Shown here: positions 24,443 to 51,468 of the stretch, piece by piece
Layout of the letters: each line of letters starts with the position of its first letter
Position numbering within the stretch: position 1 is the stretch's first letter
From: Salinirussus salinus
GTDB lineage: Archaea > Halobacteriota > Halobacteria > Halobacteriales > Haloarculaceae
NCBI RefSeq assembly: GCF_009831455.1
Contig: NZ_WOWO01000004.1
Location: 434,001 to 498,000, forward strand
Direction of reading: 5' to 3'
Length of the DNA: 64,000 nt
Notes under the pieces: model-generated
Databases searched by the model: none
Told to the model about the DNA's origin: nothing
Seen by the model: only the letters and a program-made list of their open reading frames with translations
Translations under genes and position numbers: made by a program

Positions 24443-24476
24443 GCTGAGGTAGACGCCGCGCTCCACTCTACACAGC

Positions 24477-24569
24477 ATGAAAGCCCCGGGACGTTCGACT
24501 CGGGGTCGGGAGGTTGCCCCTCGCGTACTCCCGGACCTCCATGAAAGCCCCGGGACGTTCGACTCGGGG
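24477..24569. repeat. Pair of 29-bp direct repeats, 64-bp period
   Basis: Copies at 24477-24505 and 24541-24569 are identical (starting ATGAAAGCCCCGGGACGTTC). The 35 bp between them is GC-rich and unique. Only two copies exist here, so it is not a CRISPR array. Confidence 0.8.
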
Positions 24570-24801
24570 GCCTCGCTGCGCTCCTCGGCCTCCGGCCTGC
24601 GGTGCTTGCGTCAGCCGCCGTCGTCGAACGCCTCGCCCCTTTCAGTCCCGCCCGACGCCACGTGCCTCCCCAGCCGATTCGCTCCTTCGCTTCGCTCAGT
24701 CGCTCATCCCTCGCACGGTGCTCGTCGCGGCCGGAGCCGCGACAGCGCGCGCCCGGCCCGACTATCCAGGTCGGGCGGGGTTGAAAGGGGGGGCGGCTTT
24801 C
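24477..24801. other. Hairpin-dense non-coding island A
   Basis: No gene is seen from 24405 to 24899. The stretch opens with two copies of a 29-bp direct repeat (24477-24505 and 24541-24569, beginning ATGAAAGCCCCGGGACGTTC), each able to form a CCCCG/CGGGG hairpin. Further on, a 19-nt inverted repeat (24638-24656 with 24770-24788, two mismatches) encloses an 8-bp perfect hairpin GTCGCGGC-CGGA-GCCGCGAC (24724-24743) and a 7-bp one (24756-24776). GAAAGCC at 24479 and GGCTTTC at 24795 could be its ends. The head GAAAGC(C/T)CC(G/C)GGACG is shared with island B at 49.4 kb. It could be a structured RNA or a non-autonomous mobile element. Confidence 0.5.
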
Positions 24802-24899
24802 TTGCTGTTCTGGGCAGTCTCGCTCTCAGAATTACCCGCCCAACCACGCCATCAGAGAGAGACCGGAACGTTTCTTGTCCGGACGGGCGACCTGGGGGT

Positions 24900-45132: not shown

Positions 45133-45449
45133 GAGTCGCTGACCACCACCACTATCCCCGCCACGGACACAAAACATATACCCAGGGTGTCAGACGCGTG
45201 GCATACTCCGCGGGTCGAAAACGCGCCCGTGGCCGGAGAGCGCCCGAATCGCCCGGGATCGGCGGATAGGGCGCGTGTGAGTGTGTGTCCCACATCCTAT
45301 CTAACCACAAAGCATTTAATACATCCACCGTACCTTTCCGTTGTACCCCTGCCCATGGTGATAGAAGCGAGTACACCCACGCCGACCGGTTGCCCGCCGC
45401 TGCAGTGTCGCGGGCGGAAAGCGTCTATCGCCGGCTAACGATACAAACT
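45133..45449. other. S-layer gene upstream region
   Basis: About 317 bp without a supported gene. Left part is GC-rich and unremarkable; the right part holds the S-layer promoter (TATA at 45315-45321) and a leader of roughly 100 nt before the ATG at 45450. Short AT-rich stretches include AAAACATATACCC near 45170. Confidence 0.5.
45315..45321 (+). promoter_or_regulatory. S-layer gene TATA box
   Basis: TTTAATA in AGCATTTAATACATCC. Transcription should start near 45345, giving a ~105-nt leader before the ATG at 45450. Long leaders are known for strongly expressed haloarchaeal S-layer genes. Confidence 0.6.
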
Positions 45450-48326
45450 ATGACAGGAAACAATACAAGAGACAAGCTCCGTGGCCTGTTCCTGGCCGCG
45501 ATCATGGTAACCAGCGTCTTCGTTGGTTTCATCGCGTTTGCCGGGACAGCTGCGGCAGCGAATCAGGACCTGGTGAAGGATCCGATCCATTACCAGGATC
45601 CCACAAACGATGACGGTGTAATCGAACTTGCCTTCGAAGGTGACGTGAACGTAAATGGTGACTTCCAGGTTGGCGTTGCGGGCCTGGACGAGGTCACCGT
45701 TGGCCAGAGTTATATCACGGCCACCGGCGGGCAAGTAGAAATCGACATGGCACAGTACGCTGCGGACAATAACTTGGCAGATAACGGTGTCTTCCCGCGC
45801 GTCGAAAACGTCACGTACGACGTCGCTGCCGCGGGCGACAGTTCGGCTACGGCTTCTGACACCGTTGATGTCCGCTTCGCCGGTGCGTCGCTGAACGTGG
45901 CTACGGGCTCGCCAAGCTCAAGCAACCAGTTCGAGGGAACAACGATTGCACTCTTCGACAATGCTCCTGGCACCAGCAACCAGGTCACGGTCGAGAGTGA
46001 CAGCGTGTTCGCGCAGCCGTCCACCGGGGTCAACAGTGAGGTGGCGCTGTTCGACACCACCGACCGCGCGCTCGAAGTGTACAACGTCAGCAACCTTGGT
46101 GGTGGCGACGACTTACAGTTCCGGCTGCGTGACCTCGGCCTCACCGCCACGTCTGACGAGAGCGAATTCTTCGACGACGAGGACATCACTGGCACTGTCT
46201 CGTCCGACTCTTCCAACCGTGACATTCTCATCGAGCTCCTCGACGAGGATGACGACGTCGTTGCGGACACCGAAACCGAGATCGGTGCCGAGCTGGAGAC
46301 CGACTTCACGTTCGGTTCGCAGGACACTGGTGACTACACCGTCGAGGTGACCGACCTCGCTACCGGTGTGACTGCCAGCACGGATACTATCTCCGTGGTT
46401 GCTGCGCCCGACGCTGACGCCTCCTTCGGTGAGATCGAAGGTGACCAGCGCGGTGACATCGTTGAGATCCCGATCGAGGTTACCGGTCAGAATACCGCTA
46501 ACATCACCATCGGGTCTGATGGCGTTGGTTACAACGTCAGCATGACCGTCGAAGACGGTGTGGATGACGAAGAGGACGAAGACGGTGTCGTGACGCTCAA
46601 GTGGAACACCTACAATGCTGGCACACTTAGCGGATTCAACGCTAACCCCAGCAGCGTCTTCACCGTCGCAGACAGTGACGACGAGGTCCGCGACCTCAAA
46701 GTTACCACGTCGGATATCGATGGCCAGGATGACATCATCGAAGCGGGGACCTACGAGGTCGCCGTCGGTAGCGGTGAGGACGGACCGCCGAACCCCAGCG
46801 CGGATTCCCTGGCAACCGTTCGGATCTCCGAACGCGAGAGTTCCGAGACCGGGATCAGTCTTCTGACTGCCCCGGATTCGGTTGATCCCCAGGACGACGT
46901 TGACCTGGCGTACATCCAGGATAACGTCGGCTCCGCCATCACGCCGGCTTCGAATATCGCTGAGAACGACCACCTGATCGCCGCGATCAGCGCTCAGGGT
47001 CTTGAGGGTGCAGTGAACGCGACTGGCGCGAACAACGACCTGGGCAAGTTCGCTGGCATCCACGCAGGCTCTGCTGGCGAGGGCGGATTTAGCGTTCCAG
47101 ACCTCACTGACCCCACCGCCCTGAACCTGCCAGACGACCAGATTGTGATCGAGGCTGTCGAGGTTGACCCTGGCCCGAACCAGGACGCTGACGTCGTTAA
47201 CGTCGAACCGGTCGTTGACCAGGTCGTCGCCGACACGGCGAACGACACCTACTACGTCGTCATCGACAACGATGATGGCGCCCTCAGCAACGCGCTGGAG
47301 GAGGAGGACGACTACAACCTCGAATTCAACATCCTTCCGGCTAACCAGGACACGAACAACTACGGTCTCGTCGCTCCGAATGAGGACGACGAGTTCGAGA
47401 ATGAGACTGCGAGCGCGCAGTTCGACATCGTCGACGAGGAAGCCACGATCGACGGTCCTGACACCCTGGAGGTCCAGGCTCAGGACGGTGTGACCATCAC
47501 TGGCACGTCCACCGTTGCACCGGGTGCTGAACTGGACATCCAGGTCAGTTCCCAGCGCAACGAGCCGAGCCAGTTCATCAACACGTCGACCGCGACAGTC
47601 CAGACCGACGGCACGTGGAGTGCTGACTTCGGTGACACCTTCGCCGACGCTGTCGAAGGAACGAACTTCGACATTGAGGTCACTTACGAAGGTCGGACTC
47701 TCAGCACCGACACGGACACAGGTGTTGTTGAGGGCGAACCCGTCGTCAACACCCTGACCTTCGAGGACCAGGAAGTCGTCGCCACTGGCACCCAGACGGT
47801 TGTCGTGCAGAACGTCAACCTGTCTGACGGTGGCTTCATCGCCATCCACCAGGGCGGTCCTGGCGGCCCGGTCATCGGCAACAGCGACTACATCGCTGAG
47901 AACACCGACCGGACCAACATCGCCATCTCGCTGAGCGAGCAGCTGCCGCAGGGCGAGACCACGCTGGTCGCGATGGCCCACCAGGACACGAACAACAACC
48001 AGGAGTACGAGTTCGACGGCGGTGCCGTCGACGCTCCGTACCCCGGTGACAACTTCGTGAGCTCGGCCACCATCACGGCCGGCCAGGCTCAGCCGACTGA
48101 GACGGACACGCCGGACGAGCCGACTGAGACGGACACGCCGGACACGCCGGACGAGCCGACTGAGACGGACACGCCGGACACGCCGGACGAGCCGACCGAG
48201 ACGGACACGCCCGACGAGCCGGCTGACACGACCACCGACGGTGCCGGTTCGCCCGGCTTCGGTGTGACTGCAGCCATCGTCGCGCTGCTCGGTGCCGCGT
48301 TCCTGGCACTGCGCCGTCGCGCCTAA
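45450..48326 (+). CDS. csg: S-layer glycoprotein precursor with PGF-CTERM signal
   Basis: 958 aa. Signal peptide in residues 1-37 (basic NTRDKLR, hydrophobic LFLAAIMVTSVFVGFIAFAG, AAAA cleavage region); the mature protein starts about NQDLVKDPIHYQDPT. The mature part has several Ig-like beta domains, is very acidic and has about nine N-x-S/T glycosylation sequons (for example NVSN, NITI, NVSM, NATG, NDTY, NETA, NTST). A Thr/Asp/Pro repeat linker (PTETDTPDE units) precedes GSPGFGVTAAIVALLGAAF and LRRRA, a full PGF-CTERM signal. Archaeosortase A (50.5 kb) should cut and lipid-link it. It would form the cell's outer lattice. Codon third positions are less GC-rich than neighbours. Confidence 0.95.
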   Translation: MTGNNTRDKLRGLFLAAIMVTSVFVGFIAFAGTAAAANQDLVKDPIHYQDPTNDDGVIELAFEGDVNVNGDFQVGVAGLDEVTVGQSYITATGGQVEIDMAQYAADNNLADNGVFPRVENVTYDVAAAGDSSATASDTVDVRFAGASLNVATGSPSSSNQFEGTTIALFDNAPGTSNQVTVESDSVFAQPSTGVNSEVALFDTTDRALEVYNVSNLGGGDDLQFRLRDLGLTATSDESEFFDDEDITGTVSSDSSNRDILIELLDEDDDVVADTETEIGAELETDFTFGSQDTGDYTVEVTDLATGVTASTDTISVVAAPDADASFGEIEGDQRGDIVEIPIEVTGQNTANITIGSDGVGYNVSMTVEDGVDDEEDEDGVVTLKWNTYNAGTLSGFNANPSSVFTVADSDDEVRDLKVTTSDIDGQDDIIEAGTYEVAVGSGEDGPPNPSADSLATVRISERESSETGISLLTAPDSVDPQDDVDLAYIQDNVGSAITPASNIAENDHLIAAISAQGLEGAVNATGANNDLGKFAGIHAGSAGEGGFSVPDLTDPTALNLPDDQIVIEAVEVDPGPNQDADVVNVEPVVDQVVADTANDTYYVVIDNDDGALSNALEEEDDYNLEFNILPANQDTNNYGLVAPNEDDEFENETASAQFDIVDEEATIDGPDTLEVQAQDGVTITGTSTVAPGAELDIQVSSQRNEPSQFINTSTATVQTDGTWSADFGDTFADAVEGTNFDIEVTYEGRTLSTDTDTGVVEGEPVVNTLTFEDQEVVATGTQTVVVQNVNLSDGGFIAIHQGGPGGPVIGNSDYIAENTDRTNIAISLSEQLPQGETTLVAMAHQDTNNNQEYEFDGGAVDAPYPGDNFVSSATITAGQAQPTETDTPDEPTETDTPDTPDEPTETDTPDTPDEPTETDTPDEPADTTTDGAGSPGFGVTAAIVALLGAAFLALRRRA
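48093..48218 (+). repeat. Tandem PTETDTPDE-type repeats in the S-layer gene
   Basis: Four in-frame units (9, 12, 12 and 9 codons: PTETDTPDE or PTETDTPDTPDE) built on GAGACGGACACGCCGGAC. They encode the Thr-rich, probably O-glycosylated linker that lifts the lattice from the membrane. Copy number may vary between strains by slippage. Confidence 0.85.
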
Positions 48327-48790: not shown

Positions 48791-49036
48791 TCAGGCGTGT
48801 TCGTCGACCCACTCACACCAGGCTTCGAAGTCGTCTGCGCCACACTGGTCTGCGATCGAGCGGAGGGTTCCTATCTTTATTTCTCTATGCTGTGGGACAT
48901 CGACGTTACGCACCTCTCCAGTCTCCGGGTGTTCGTACCGAAGTCGCACGTGGCTCCCCTCGCGGGCAACCGGCACGTAACCGAAGCTCCGGAGTACTTT
49001 GACTATCTCACGGCCCGAGAACGTCTTCCTGACCAT
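48791..49036 (-). CDS. hicA: HicA-family mRNA interferase toxin
   Basis: 81 aa. RKTFSGREIVKVLRSFGYVP, then the key His in REGSHVRLRYEHP and VPQHREIKIGTL: the HicA double-stranded-RNA-binding fold with catalytic His (GSHV). It cleaves mRNA without translation. It follows hicB by three bases on the minus strand, so the antitoxin is first here. A C-terminal acidic stretch (CGADDFEAWCEWVDEHA) is an extension. Confidence 0.9.
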   Translation of the reverse strand: MVRKTFSGREIVKVLRSFGYVPVAREGSHVRLRYEHPETGEVRNVDVPQHREIKIGTLRSIADQCGADDFEAWCEWVDEHA

Positions 49037-49039
49037 CCA

Positions 49040-49309
49040 TTACCGTAGAAATCCCGGTAGCTCGTCGTGCTCCCCGAGGTCCCCGACGTCGATATCCATC
49101 TCCTCGTCGAGAAACTCGTCGGGGTCGTCGACCGGCTCACCACCCCCGGCTTCGAGCCGGAGCACCTCGGCCAGTTGTGCCAGCGCTTCCGCACGCGTCT
49201 CTCCGCCTCTGGCGAGCCCGGTTTCGAGGTCGCGGGCAGTCACGCTCCCGTCGTCTTCGTGGATGAACTCCACACCCTCGCGTTTTCGGTCGCGTGACGT
49301 GCTTGCCAT
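49040..49309 (-). CDS. hicB: HicB-family antitoxin
   Basis: 89 aa. GVEFIHEDDGSVTARDLETG with the partial RNase H-like HicB fold (TRAEALAQLAEVLRLEA), then an acidic tail. No ribbon-helix-helix domain is visible, so autoregulation through this protein is uncertain. It precedes hicA on the minus strand. A hairpin-dense island (49363-49687) lies directly upstream. Confidence 0.82.
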   Translation of the reverse strand: MASTSRDRKREGVEFIHEDDGSVTARDLETGLARGGETRAEALAQLAEVLRLEAGGGEPVDDPDEFLDEEMDIDVGDLGEHDELPGFLR

Positions 49310-49362
49310 ACCAGATCACAGTCGGATCTCGGTGATAAGCCTTCGGACGGCTCCCAGGGATA

Positions 49363-49687
49363 GTGTTCAGATTAGAGCGATTCGGTTAGAGACACCTCGA
49401 AAGCTCCCGGACGCGCGACGGCTTCGCCGTCGTGGCATGACGAGGTCGGCGGGGCCGACCTCATGCTCGGTGAACCCGGACGACGCAAGCCGCGAGGCGC
49501 CACCGGCGCCTCGGCCCGTGCGAACGGGCCGGAGGCCCGTGAGCAGACACCGTGATCCGAAAGACCGGTCTGCGGTCTTTCGAACGACAGCGAGTGTCAC
49601 GCGAGGCGGAGCCGAGCGTGACCTTGAGAGACGAGATGCCGGGGGGATTTCGAGGTGTCCGCAGCAAACCCGCGCTGATCTGAACAC
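49363..49687. other. Hairpin-dense non-coding island B with long inverted ends
   Basis: No gene lies between 49310 and 49741. The ends are inverted repeats: GTGTTCAGAT (49363-49372) with ATCTGAACAC (49678-49687), and GACACCTCGAAA (49391-49402) with TTTCGAGGTGTC (49648-49659), so about 48 bp of each end pair with gaps. Inside are at least six perfect hairpins: GACGGC-TTC-GCCGTC type (about 49419), GAGGTCGGC-GGG-GCCGACCTC (about 49451-49471), CGAGGCGCC-ACC-GGCGCCTCG (about 49494-49514), GCCCGT-GCGA-ACGGGC, GAAAGACC/GGTCTTTC and GTCACGC/GCGTGAC. A folded RNA or a non-autonomous mobile element are both possible. Confidence 0.6.
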
Positions 49688-49741
49688 CAGCGTCGTGAGG
49701 GCCGTTCCATTCAATACAGTCGGGTGTATACCTCCGAGTGA

Positions 49742-50023
49742 ATGGCACAGCAGCCCGCCCGGATCGTCCGCGAGGTTCACGACGAGCCTCACATCAAGGG
49801 GAGCCGCGTCAGCGTCCGGCACATCTACGCGCGGGTTCACGACCGTGGGCTCCGCCCCGAAACGGTCGCCGAACGGCTCGACCTCGACCTCGCGGACGTG
49901 TATCACGCGCTGGCCTACTACCACGACCACCCCGAAGAGATGGCTGCTGTCGAGCGCCAGCGCGAGGAGGCCACGGAGGCAGCACGCGAACGGACGACTA
50001 TCAGTCCACCCGACGACGGGTAA
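49742..50023 (+). CDS. DUF433 antitoxin-type protein
   Basis: 93 aa. ARIVREVHDEPHIKGSRVSV, then GLRPETVAERLDLDLADVYHAL: the DUF433 winged/HTH pattern, which pairs with DUF5615 PIN-like proteins as a toxin-antitoxin or defence-like module. Ends in a charged tail (RQREEATEAARERTT). Its stop shares one base with the start of the next gene (TAATG). Promoter in the short AT-rich stretch AATACAGTCGGGTGTATACC (49713-49732). Confidence 0.87.
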   Translation: MAQQPARIVREVHDEPHIKGSRVSVRHIYARVHDRGLRPETVAERLDLDLADVYHALAYYHDHPEEMAAVERQREEATEAARERTTISPPDDG

Positions 50024-50367
50024 TGTCGGTCCTGCTGTTGCTTGATGAGCACGTCGACCACGAGGTCTACCACAGACTCGACGACTACGGACACTGCGTC
50101 GAACACGTCGCCTTTCATGACACGCTTGAGCCGGGTGACTCGGACCGGGCGCTCGCTGACTACTCCCTGGAGCACGGGGCGCTGATCGTCACGTACGACG
50201 ACGACTTCGAGCAACACCACGACGAGTCGGACTACTGGGGCGTGCTCTTCTTCTCCGACGACGGCTGGTCGGCTACCGAAGTCGCCGAGACGGTCCATCG
50301 AGTCGTCGAGTTGTACGACGAACCGACGCTAAGCCAGCTGAACCTCGTCGGCCGTGAGTGGCTGTAG
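50023..50367 (+). CDS. DUF5615 PIN-like toxin
   Basis: 114 aa. SVLLLLDEHVDHEVYHRLDD gives the DEH motif, then HGALIVTYDDDFEQHH and GVLFFSDDGWSATEV: the PIN-like DUF5615 fold with its acidic cluster (DEH, DDD). Expected to be a nuclease toxin, coupled to the DUF433 gene by a one-base overlap. Convergent with nothing; artA starts 127 bp later. Confidence 0.87.
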   Translation: MSVLLLLDEHVDHEVYHRLDDYGHCVEHVAFHDTLEPGDSDRALADYSLEHGALIVTYDDDFEQHHDESDYWGVLFFSDDGWSATEVAETVHRVVELYDEPTLSQLNLVGREWL

Positions 50368-50493: not shown

Positions 50494-51468
50494 ATGCTCG
50501 ACTCGCTCCTGGGCGCCCTCGAGGCGGCTCACACGGTCTCGGGGCCGCTGGGCTGGCTCGTCGTGGGGGTCTTTCTCGCCGGCGTCGCCCTGGAGCGGTA
50601 CGACCGCGAGTACGCGCGGTGGGTCTACGTCGGGTCGTGGGTCCTGATCGCCGCGTACTGGCTCTCGATGGTCCACTACTTCGCCATCGACCAGAAGAGC
50701 GTCGTCGAGGGCATCGGCGTCGTCGCTGGCATCCCGCTCTCGGTCTACGTCGGCTACCTGCTCGCCCGCGGGCGTGACTCGCTGTTTACCCTCTCGCGGG
50801 CCGTCGCCCTGATGGGGCTCTTTTATATGCCGCTCGTCGCTATCCCGGTCGTCCGGCAGACCCTCATCGAGACGGTCACCGACCAGACCGGGTTCGTCCT
50901 GAACCTCGTCGGCGTCACCCCGCAGGTCGCCGACGGCTTCTACGTCGACGGGCTGCGGATCGCCGAGAAGAGCCACCCCTACGAGAGCACCTTCGTCTAC
51001 TACGTCGGCGGCGAGCCCCTGACCCACACCATCCTGATCGCGTGCACGGGCATCGGCAGCATGGCGATCATCGCCGGGCTGGTGGCGGCCGTCGACGCCC
51101 CACTGAACCGGAAGTTCCAGGCGCTTGCGATCACGCTCCCAATCATTTACGTGCTCAACATCGCCCGGAACGTCTTCATCTCCGTCAGCATGGGCGAGCA
51201 ACTGCTCCAGGTCTTCCCCGGAGCCATCAGCTCCCTCTTCGCGCTGGAGAACACCGTGATGGTCTCCTACATCGTCGCCGACCGGATCGTCTCCCAGAGC
51301 CTGTCGGTGGTCGTCCTCGTCGGGCTCCTCTGGCTGATCGTCCAGCGCGTCCCCGAAGTGCTGACTGTCGTCGACGACGTGGTCTACGTGCTCACCGGCC
51401 GGGAGTACGACCTCGGCGAGGCACTCGGCGTGACTGTCGACTCCGGGCAGTCCCAGCCCGGCGACTGA
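50494..51468 (+). CDS. artA: Archaeosortase A
   Basis: 324 aa, about eight to nine membrane helices. The active-site residues fall where the family expects: Cys184 in IACTGIGSM, Arg225 in NIARNVFI and Arg264 in VADRIVSQ. The spacing between them (41 and 39 residues) equals that recalled for Haloferax ArtA (Cys173, Arg214, Arg253). ArtA cuts PGF-CTERM proteins and links them to lipid. Two clients are visible in the window, csg at 45.5 kb and the partial protein at the left edge. A TATA-like CATAAGACATATAC lies about 30 bp upstream (50455-50468). Confidence 0.96.
   Translation: MLDSLLGALEAAHTVSGPLGWLVVGVFLAGVALERYDREYARWVYVGSWVLIAAYWLSMVHYFAIDQKSVVEGIGVVAGIPLSVYVGYLLARGRDSLFTLSRAVALMGLFYMPLVAIPVVRQTLIETVTDQTGFVLNLVGVTPQVADGFYVDGLRIAEKSHPYESTFVYYVGGEPLTHTILIACTGIGSMAIIAGLVAAVDAPLNRKFQALAITLPIIYVLNIARNVFISVSMGEQLLQVFPGAISSLFALENTVMVSYIVADRIVSQSLSVVVLVGLLWLIVQRVPEVLTVVDDVVYVLTGREYDLGEALGVTVDSGQSQPGD

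Follow-up and report, generated by a model that had tools for sequence, protein, structure and literature searches.

Two MITEs of the IS6 family, MITEHarch3 and MITEBth2, measuring 227 and 336 bp, have already been recorded in ISfinder (PMC7986276, PMC6807381); to judge by its name, MITEHarch3 may come from a haloarchaeon. The insertion sequences ISH14 (696 bp) and ISH29 (697 bp) are given in PMC6807381 with a product of 211 aa and 8-bp TSDs, and the same source argues for splitting the archaeal members from IS6/IS26. According to PMC7986276, IS6 ends start with GG, contain a cTGTt motif and are accompanied by 8-bp duplications. Other short, transposase-free mobile repeats with palindromes are known from one haloarchaeon as the PATEs and SMRs of Haloquadratum (PMC3119063).

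We analysed an island in a stretch of 64,000 nucleotides of Salinirussus salinus DNA, the whole of which we call the window. The island is very probably a decayed MITE-like, non-autonomous element with ends of the haloarchaeal IS6-family (ISH14/ISH29-like) type, mobilised in trans. Like MITEHarch3 and MITEBth2 it is non-coding, a few hundred bp long and bounded by IS6-type ends, as judged from their published descriptions. The hairpin-arm interior that characterises the island is not among the features given in the descriptions consulted. With ISH14 and ISH29, as far as they are described in these sources, it shares the type of ends and the 8-bp duplication, and the 695-697-bp elements discussed below agree with them in size and in the 211-aa transposase, but the transposase gene is theirs and the island has none. 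PATEs have no terminal inverted repeats or duplications, whereas the island has terminal repeats and its sister copies have duplications. SMRs also lack duplications and have ends unrelated to known transposons, while the island ends match IS6-family elements (PMC3119063).

A first-pass annotation, made from the sequence alone, had placed the island at 49363-49687. The sequence is as described there, but comparison with relatives shifts the limits to 49359-49691. The inverted ends, announced as 48 bp long, are present but imperfect: the arms at 49363-49408 and 49642-49687 span 46 nt and are 74% complementary. Their outer pair of 13 nt consists of 12 Watson-Crick pairs and one G.T, and the inner pair of 12 bp is perfect. 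The same annotation had seen at least six internal hairpins, of which six are confirmed, and the fold of the whole element lies far beyond chance (z -9.95 as DNA and -10.1 as RNA), with none of 100 dinucleotide shuffles folding as well. We found no credible protein-coding gene within the limits of the island; the overlapping ORFs show no gene signs, and 333 bp is too short to encode a transposase.

Table 1. Features of the island, its flanks and a related element, in window coordinates
Feature	Position	Strand	Basis
Whole element (333 bp), MITE-like	49359..49691	.	full-length match to IS6-type TIR class; left-flank homology stops at 49354
Left terminal repeat GATAGTGTTCAGATTAG, tip GA in place of GG	49359..49375	+	sequence comparison
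Inner inverted repeat, left arm GACACCTCGAAA	49391..49402	.	end type shared with Halonotius elements (...ACACCTCGAAAGCCCC)
Hairpin 1, CGACGGC-TTC-GCCGTCG	49416..49432	.	
Hairpin 2, GAGGTCGGC-GGG-GCCGACCTC, extension GCATGA/TCATGC	49442..49462	.	
5' core of conserved hairpin arm, GGTGAACCCGGACGACGCAAGC	49469..49490	+	comparison with other arms
Hairpin 3, CGAGGCGCC/GGCGCCTCG	49493..49513	.	covariation in 16 copies
Hairpin 4, ACGGGCC/GGCCCGT	49524..49540	.	covariation in 16 copies
Hairpin 5, CGAAAGACCG/CGGTCTTTCG	49558..49582	.	
3' core of arm, around ACAGCGAGTGT (cf. CAGCGAGT in other arms)	49587..49597	+	
Hairpin 6, GTCACGC/GCGTGAC	49596..49622	.	
Inner inverted repeat, right arm TTTCGAGGTGTC	49648..49659	.	
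Right terminal repeat, inward reading GCTGGTGTTCAGATCAG, tip GC in place of GG	49675..49691	-	
HicA + DUF7387 gene pair	flanks island	-	
DUF433 + DUF5615 gene pair	flanks island	+	
Second, more typical hairpin-family member	24474..24806	.	delimited by AGCAAGAAAGCCCC-type ends

The island ends in GATAGTGTTCAGATTAG and GCTGGTGTTCAGATCAG, which agree with the GGTAGTGTTCAGATAAG termini of a set of 695-697-bp elements coding for an IS6-family transposase. The island shares TGTTCAGAT with these elements, and its tips are mutated. Elements of Halonotius have the same end subtype as the window copy, for example TACTGTTCAGATTAGTGCGATTGGATTGAGAACATCTTGAAAGCCCC. Among 293 genomes from the order, 83 contain a related end, GGTNSTGTTCAGATAAG, for which the reversed control gave 0; this end bounds 695-697-bp elements with a single ORF. 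The 211-aa product scores 189-197 bits against the NCBIfam model NF033587 'IS6 family transposase' (cut-off 125), and 22.8 bits against the Pfam IS240 model, which is under its cut-off of 27. The search of this genome turned up a single IS6-type transposase, and the element encoding it ends differently (GGCACTGTCTAGTTGAG), so no helper that fits the island was found there. Two other movers were considered and rejected: a PF01609 transposase, of which the genome has one, and an IS1595 (PF12762) transposase, of which it has none and whose loci gave no end match.

Perfect 8-bp target duplications flank 21 of the 66 elements of the island's TIR class (0.0000 in mismatched-pair controls), and at least seven of eight flanking bases are identical in 26 of the 66 (controls 0.0018). 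Most of the 21 duplication-flanked elements are hairpin elements. A 343-bp hairpin element of a congener (L185) has the duplication GTACTCAC, and four one-armed, IS6-ended elements with intact arms (L195, L201, L203 and L206) have perfect duplications; elements of this last type are the closest architectural match to the island. The window copy itself has no target duplication, with 3/8 bases identical, and neither of its tips retains GG. These mutated tips, together with the missing duplication, mean that it is probably an immobile relic. A mobile element moved in trans, one of the explanations that the first-pass annotation had offered, is supported by the many copies, by ends common to transposase-bearing elements and by the 8-bp duplications in sister copies.

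It had also proposed to look for empty sites. There are relatives without the element on a homologous flank, but just one flank is homologous, and no clean empty site was found in the relatives compared. Homology of the left flank with one of them (L250 in genome G128) ends at 49354, a few bases outside the element; L250 has no element at this site, but its right flank differs too. In the congener, L185 adjoins a gene whose orthologue here has no such element beside it; in this case too, just one flank is homologous.

The proposed search for other copies was successful. The interior of the island is 83-86% identical to two other loci in the genome, and there are shorter matches elsewhere. We delimited 16 related elements in the genome, measuring 175-541 bp between AGCAAGAAAGCCCC and its reverse complement, lengths that leave out the outer ends of the elements. 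With up to two mismatches, AGCAAGAAAGCCCC has 67 matches in this genome vs 29 for the reversed control; in its exact form, the end subtype seen in the window copy is present just once. Two own-genome copies (L002 and L003) hold a hairpin that is related to hairpin 1 and has different stem bases. In the usual layout, a palindromic core, GCCCCTTTCAGTCCCGCCC - ~20 nt - GGGCGGGACTGAAAGGGGC, has one hairpin arm on either side, and the two arms stand back to back. The second member in the window contains an intact arm at 24543-24647 on the minus strand (covariance model, 98.8 bits, E 1.9e-19); this member is two-ended, and its left end is partly duplicated.

Exact matches to GGGACTGAAAGGGGC were found in 86/146 genomes of the same taxonomic family, covering 20 of its 22 genera, and the reversed control gave 0. 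All matches listed for the core palindrome belong to Halobacteria (Haloarcula, Halonotius, Halohasta, Halorarius, Haloterrigena, Natronococcus and others). Two patterns searched in viral contigs gave no match, nor did a DNA search of a plasmid collection, and a literature search with the conserved strings gave nothing relevant. We rejected an apparently 'autonomous' element of 2 kb, flanked by GGGACTGAAAGGGGC sites in G007, which is really a set of half-elements around a tRNA-methyltransferase-like gene and has no transposase. In genome G003, three loci (L180, L181 and L182) have the arms tail-to-tail, with their GGGGCTTTC ends facing each other and adjoining a shared module, GCGCGCTGGCGA...GGTTGGGGAGGGTGTGG.

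The arm is a hairpin of ~100 nt, GACTGAAAGGGG...GGGGCTTTC, which occurs class-wide. In 259 arms, 11.2 of 14 stem positions are paired when both sides come from the same arm, vs 7.2 when partners are swapped, and at least 12 positions are paired in 55% of the arms vs 0.7% with swapped partners. One side of the stem alone is represented by 194 different 12-mers. An alignment of 40 arms shows two-sided compensatory change at 20 of the 30 base pairs, so the compensatory changes that had been suggested as a check do exist in the hairpin family; 95.9% of the cells in this alignment pair, vs 74.1% after shuffling and 31-47% after sliding. The internal loops of the arm are conserved. The mismatches are biased between strands: G.T outnumbers A.C (60 vs 30, p 0.002) and G.A outnumbers C.T (232 vs 25), the latter nearly all at two fixed positions, and about two thirds of the arms have a tandem G.A pair at fixed positions. 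The compensatory counts are inflated by relatedness, and MAFFT aligns compensating stems imperfectly, so the counts support folding of one strand and do not prove an RNA.

The island keeps the arm cores, GAACCCGGACGACGCAAGC on the 5' side and CAGCGAGT on the 3' side, as seen by sequence comparison. The covariance model of the intact arm detects no such arm in the island, where its best score is 16.5 bits. In our own reading the island would be an elaborated and decayed arm, in which extra hairpins were inserted and the basal stem was replaced by IS6-type ends. In other genomes, 143 of 172 arm flanks showed no IS6-type ends under the test applied, so mobilisation by IS6 explains the window element and not the whole arm family. 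We suggest only tentatively that the arm, with its order GACTGAAAGGGG - covarying stem - tandem G.A - conserved internal loops - GGGGCTTTC, might be a structured nucleic acid that is spread through the class Halobacteria and has so far escaped description. It would act as RNA or ssDNA and would have been captured repeatedly by mobile ends, those of the IS6 type among them, with the island as one degenerate derivative. If the arm is functional, as RNA or as ssDNA, haloarchaea would have in it a very abundant structured motif that is missing from Rfam. If it is not functional, it shows how palindromic modules are shuffled as the interiors of MITEs evolve. The island itself is probably a relic. 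The hairpin family to which it points is abundant, and its named carriers come from several groups within Halobacteria.

The same fold and covariation could also mean that the island serves first of all as a structured non-coding RNA, either a gene or a cis element, with its fold under selection and its mobile ends incidental. We consider this rather unlikely. The RNA fold score, the compensatory change in two thirds of the arm pairs, the conserved internal loops and the strand-biased mismatches all speak for it, and the structured RNA suggested earlier may exist, given the strong compensatory change in the hairpin family. But Rfam has no match in the window at gathering thresholds, and its permissive mode returned just sub-threshold, chance-like matches. 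In two-armed elements one arm lies on each strand, so a single transcript would not have both in folding orientation, and the intact arm model matches the island no higher than the score given above. The strand bias suits ssDNA as well as RNA, and the hairpins might then be ssDNA recognition sites (REP/BIME- or IS200/IS605-derived PATE-like) moved by a HUH/Y1-type nuclease. Bacterial REP/BIME and REPIN sequences are imperfect palindromic units that occur in inverted pairs and in many copies. The arms resemble them as imperfect palindromes with conserved mismatches, present in many copies, single or in inverted pairs, both head-to-head and tail-to-tail. The IS6-ended elements differ from them in their ends, 8-bp duplications and ~100-nt arms, and the terminal inverted repeats and 8-bp duplications of the IS6-ended copies are absent from PATEs by definition (PMC3119063), which makes such an origin improbable.

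The position of the island between two divergent, toxin-antitoxin-like gene pairs (48791-49309 and 49742-50367) would fit a regulatory or recombination region of these genes, HicA/DUF7387 and DUF433/DUF5615. The probability of this is very small in our estimate, given that a relative has the left gene pair without the island, with homology ending just outside the element, and that other copies adjoin unrelated sequence. A recombination or replication signal, which the first-pass annotation had also named, found no support.

We return to the decayed IS6-ended element as the best explanation. An ISH14/ISH29-like transposase acting in trans would recognise GGNNNTGTTYAG and insert the element, leaving an 8-bp duplication, and the window copy would by now be immobile, as its lost GG tips and missing duplication suggest. 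Its interior would be an elaborated form of the class-wide hairpin arm, with stems that stay complementary while the sequence changes. The arm may act, or may once have acted, as a folded single strand of RNA or ssDNA, and would travel as cargo within the IS6-ended element. MITEs of the IS6 family are already known, and the hairpin cargo family appears to be undescribed in the sources searched.

Some minor observations concern the surroundings of these elements. In other genomes, CTAG is found 38-56 nt outside the conserved GAAAGCCCC end (for example in L072, L106, L111, L114, L119 and L153). Its distance is phased in threes (32:5:2), and purines recur there at every third base. We tried reading this CTAG, at the outer boundary, as a target site used by a second transposon and rejected the idea; neither a duplication nor a clear reading frame was found. 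The left flank of L082 has tandem copies of a 45-nt stretch that contains the element end, and their outward translation repeats GFLAVCGLLCSNRSR. Near the island, a large surface-protein-like ORF at 45285-48326 was recognised by eye, with a TETDTPDEPTET tail and a C-terminal hydrophobic segment, as was a multi-pass, archaeosortase-like membrane protein at 50494-51468.
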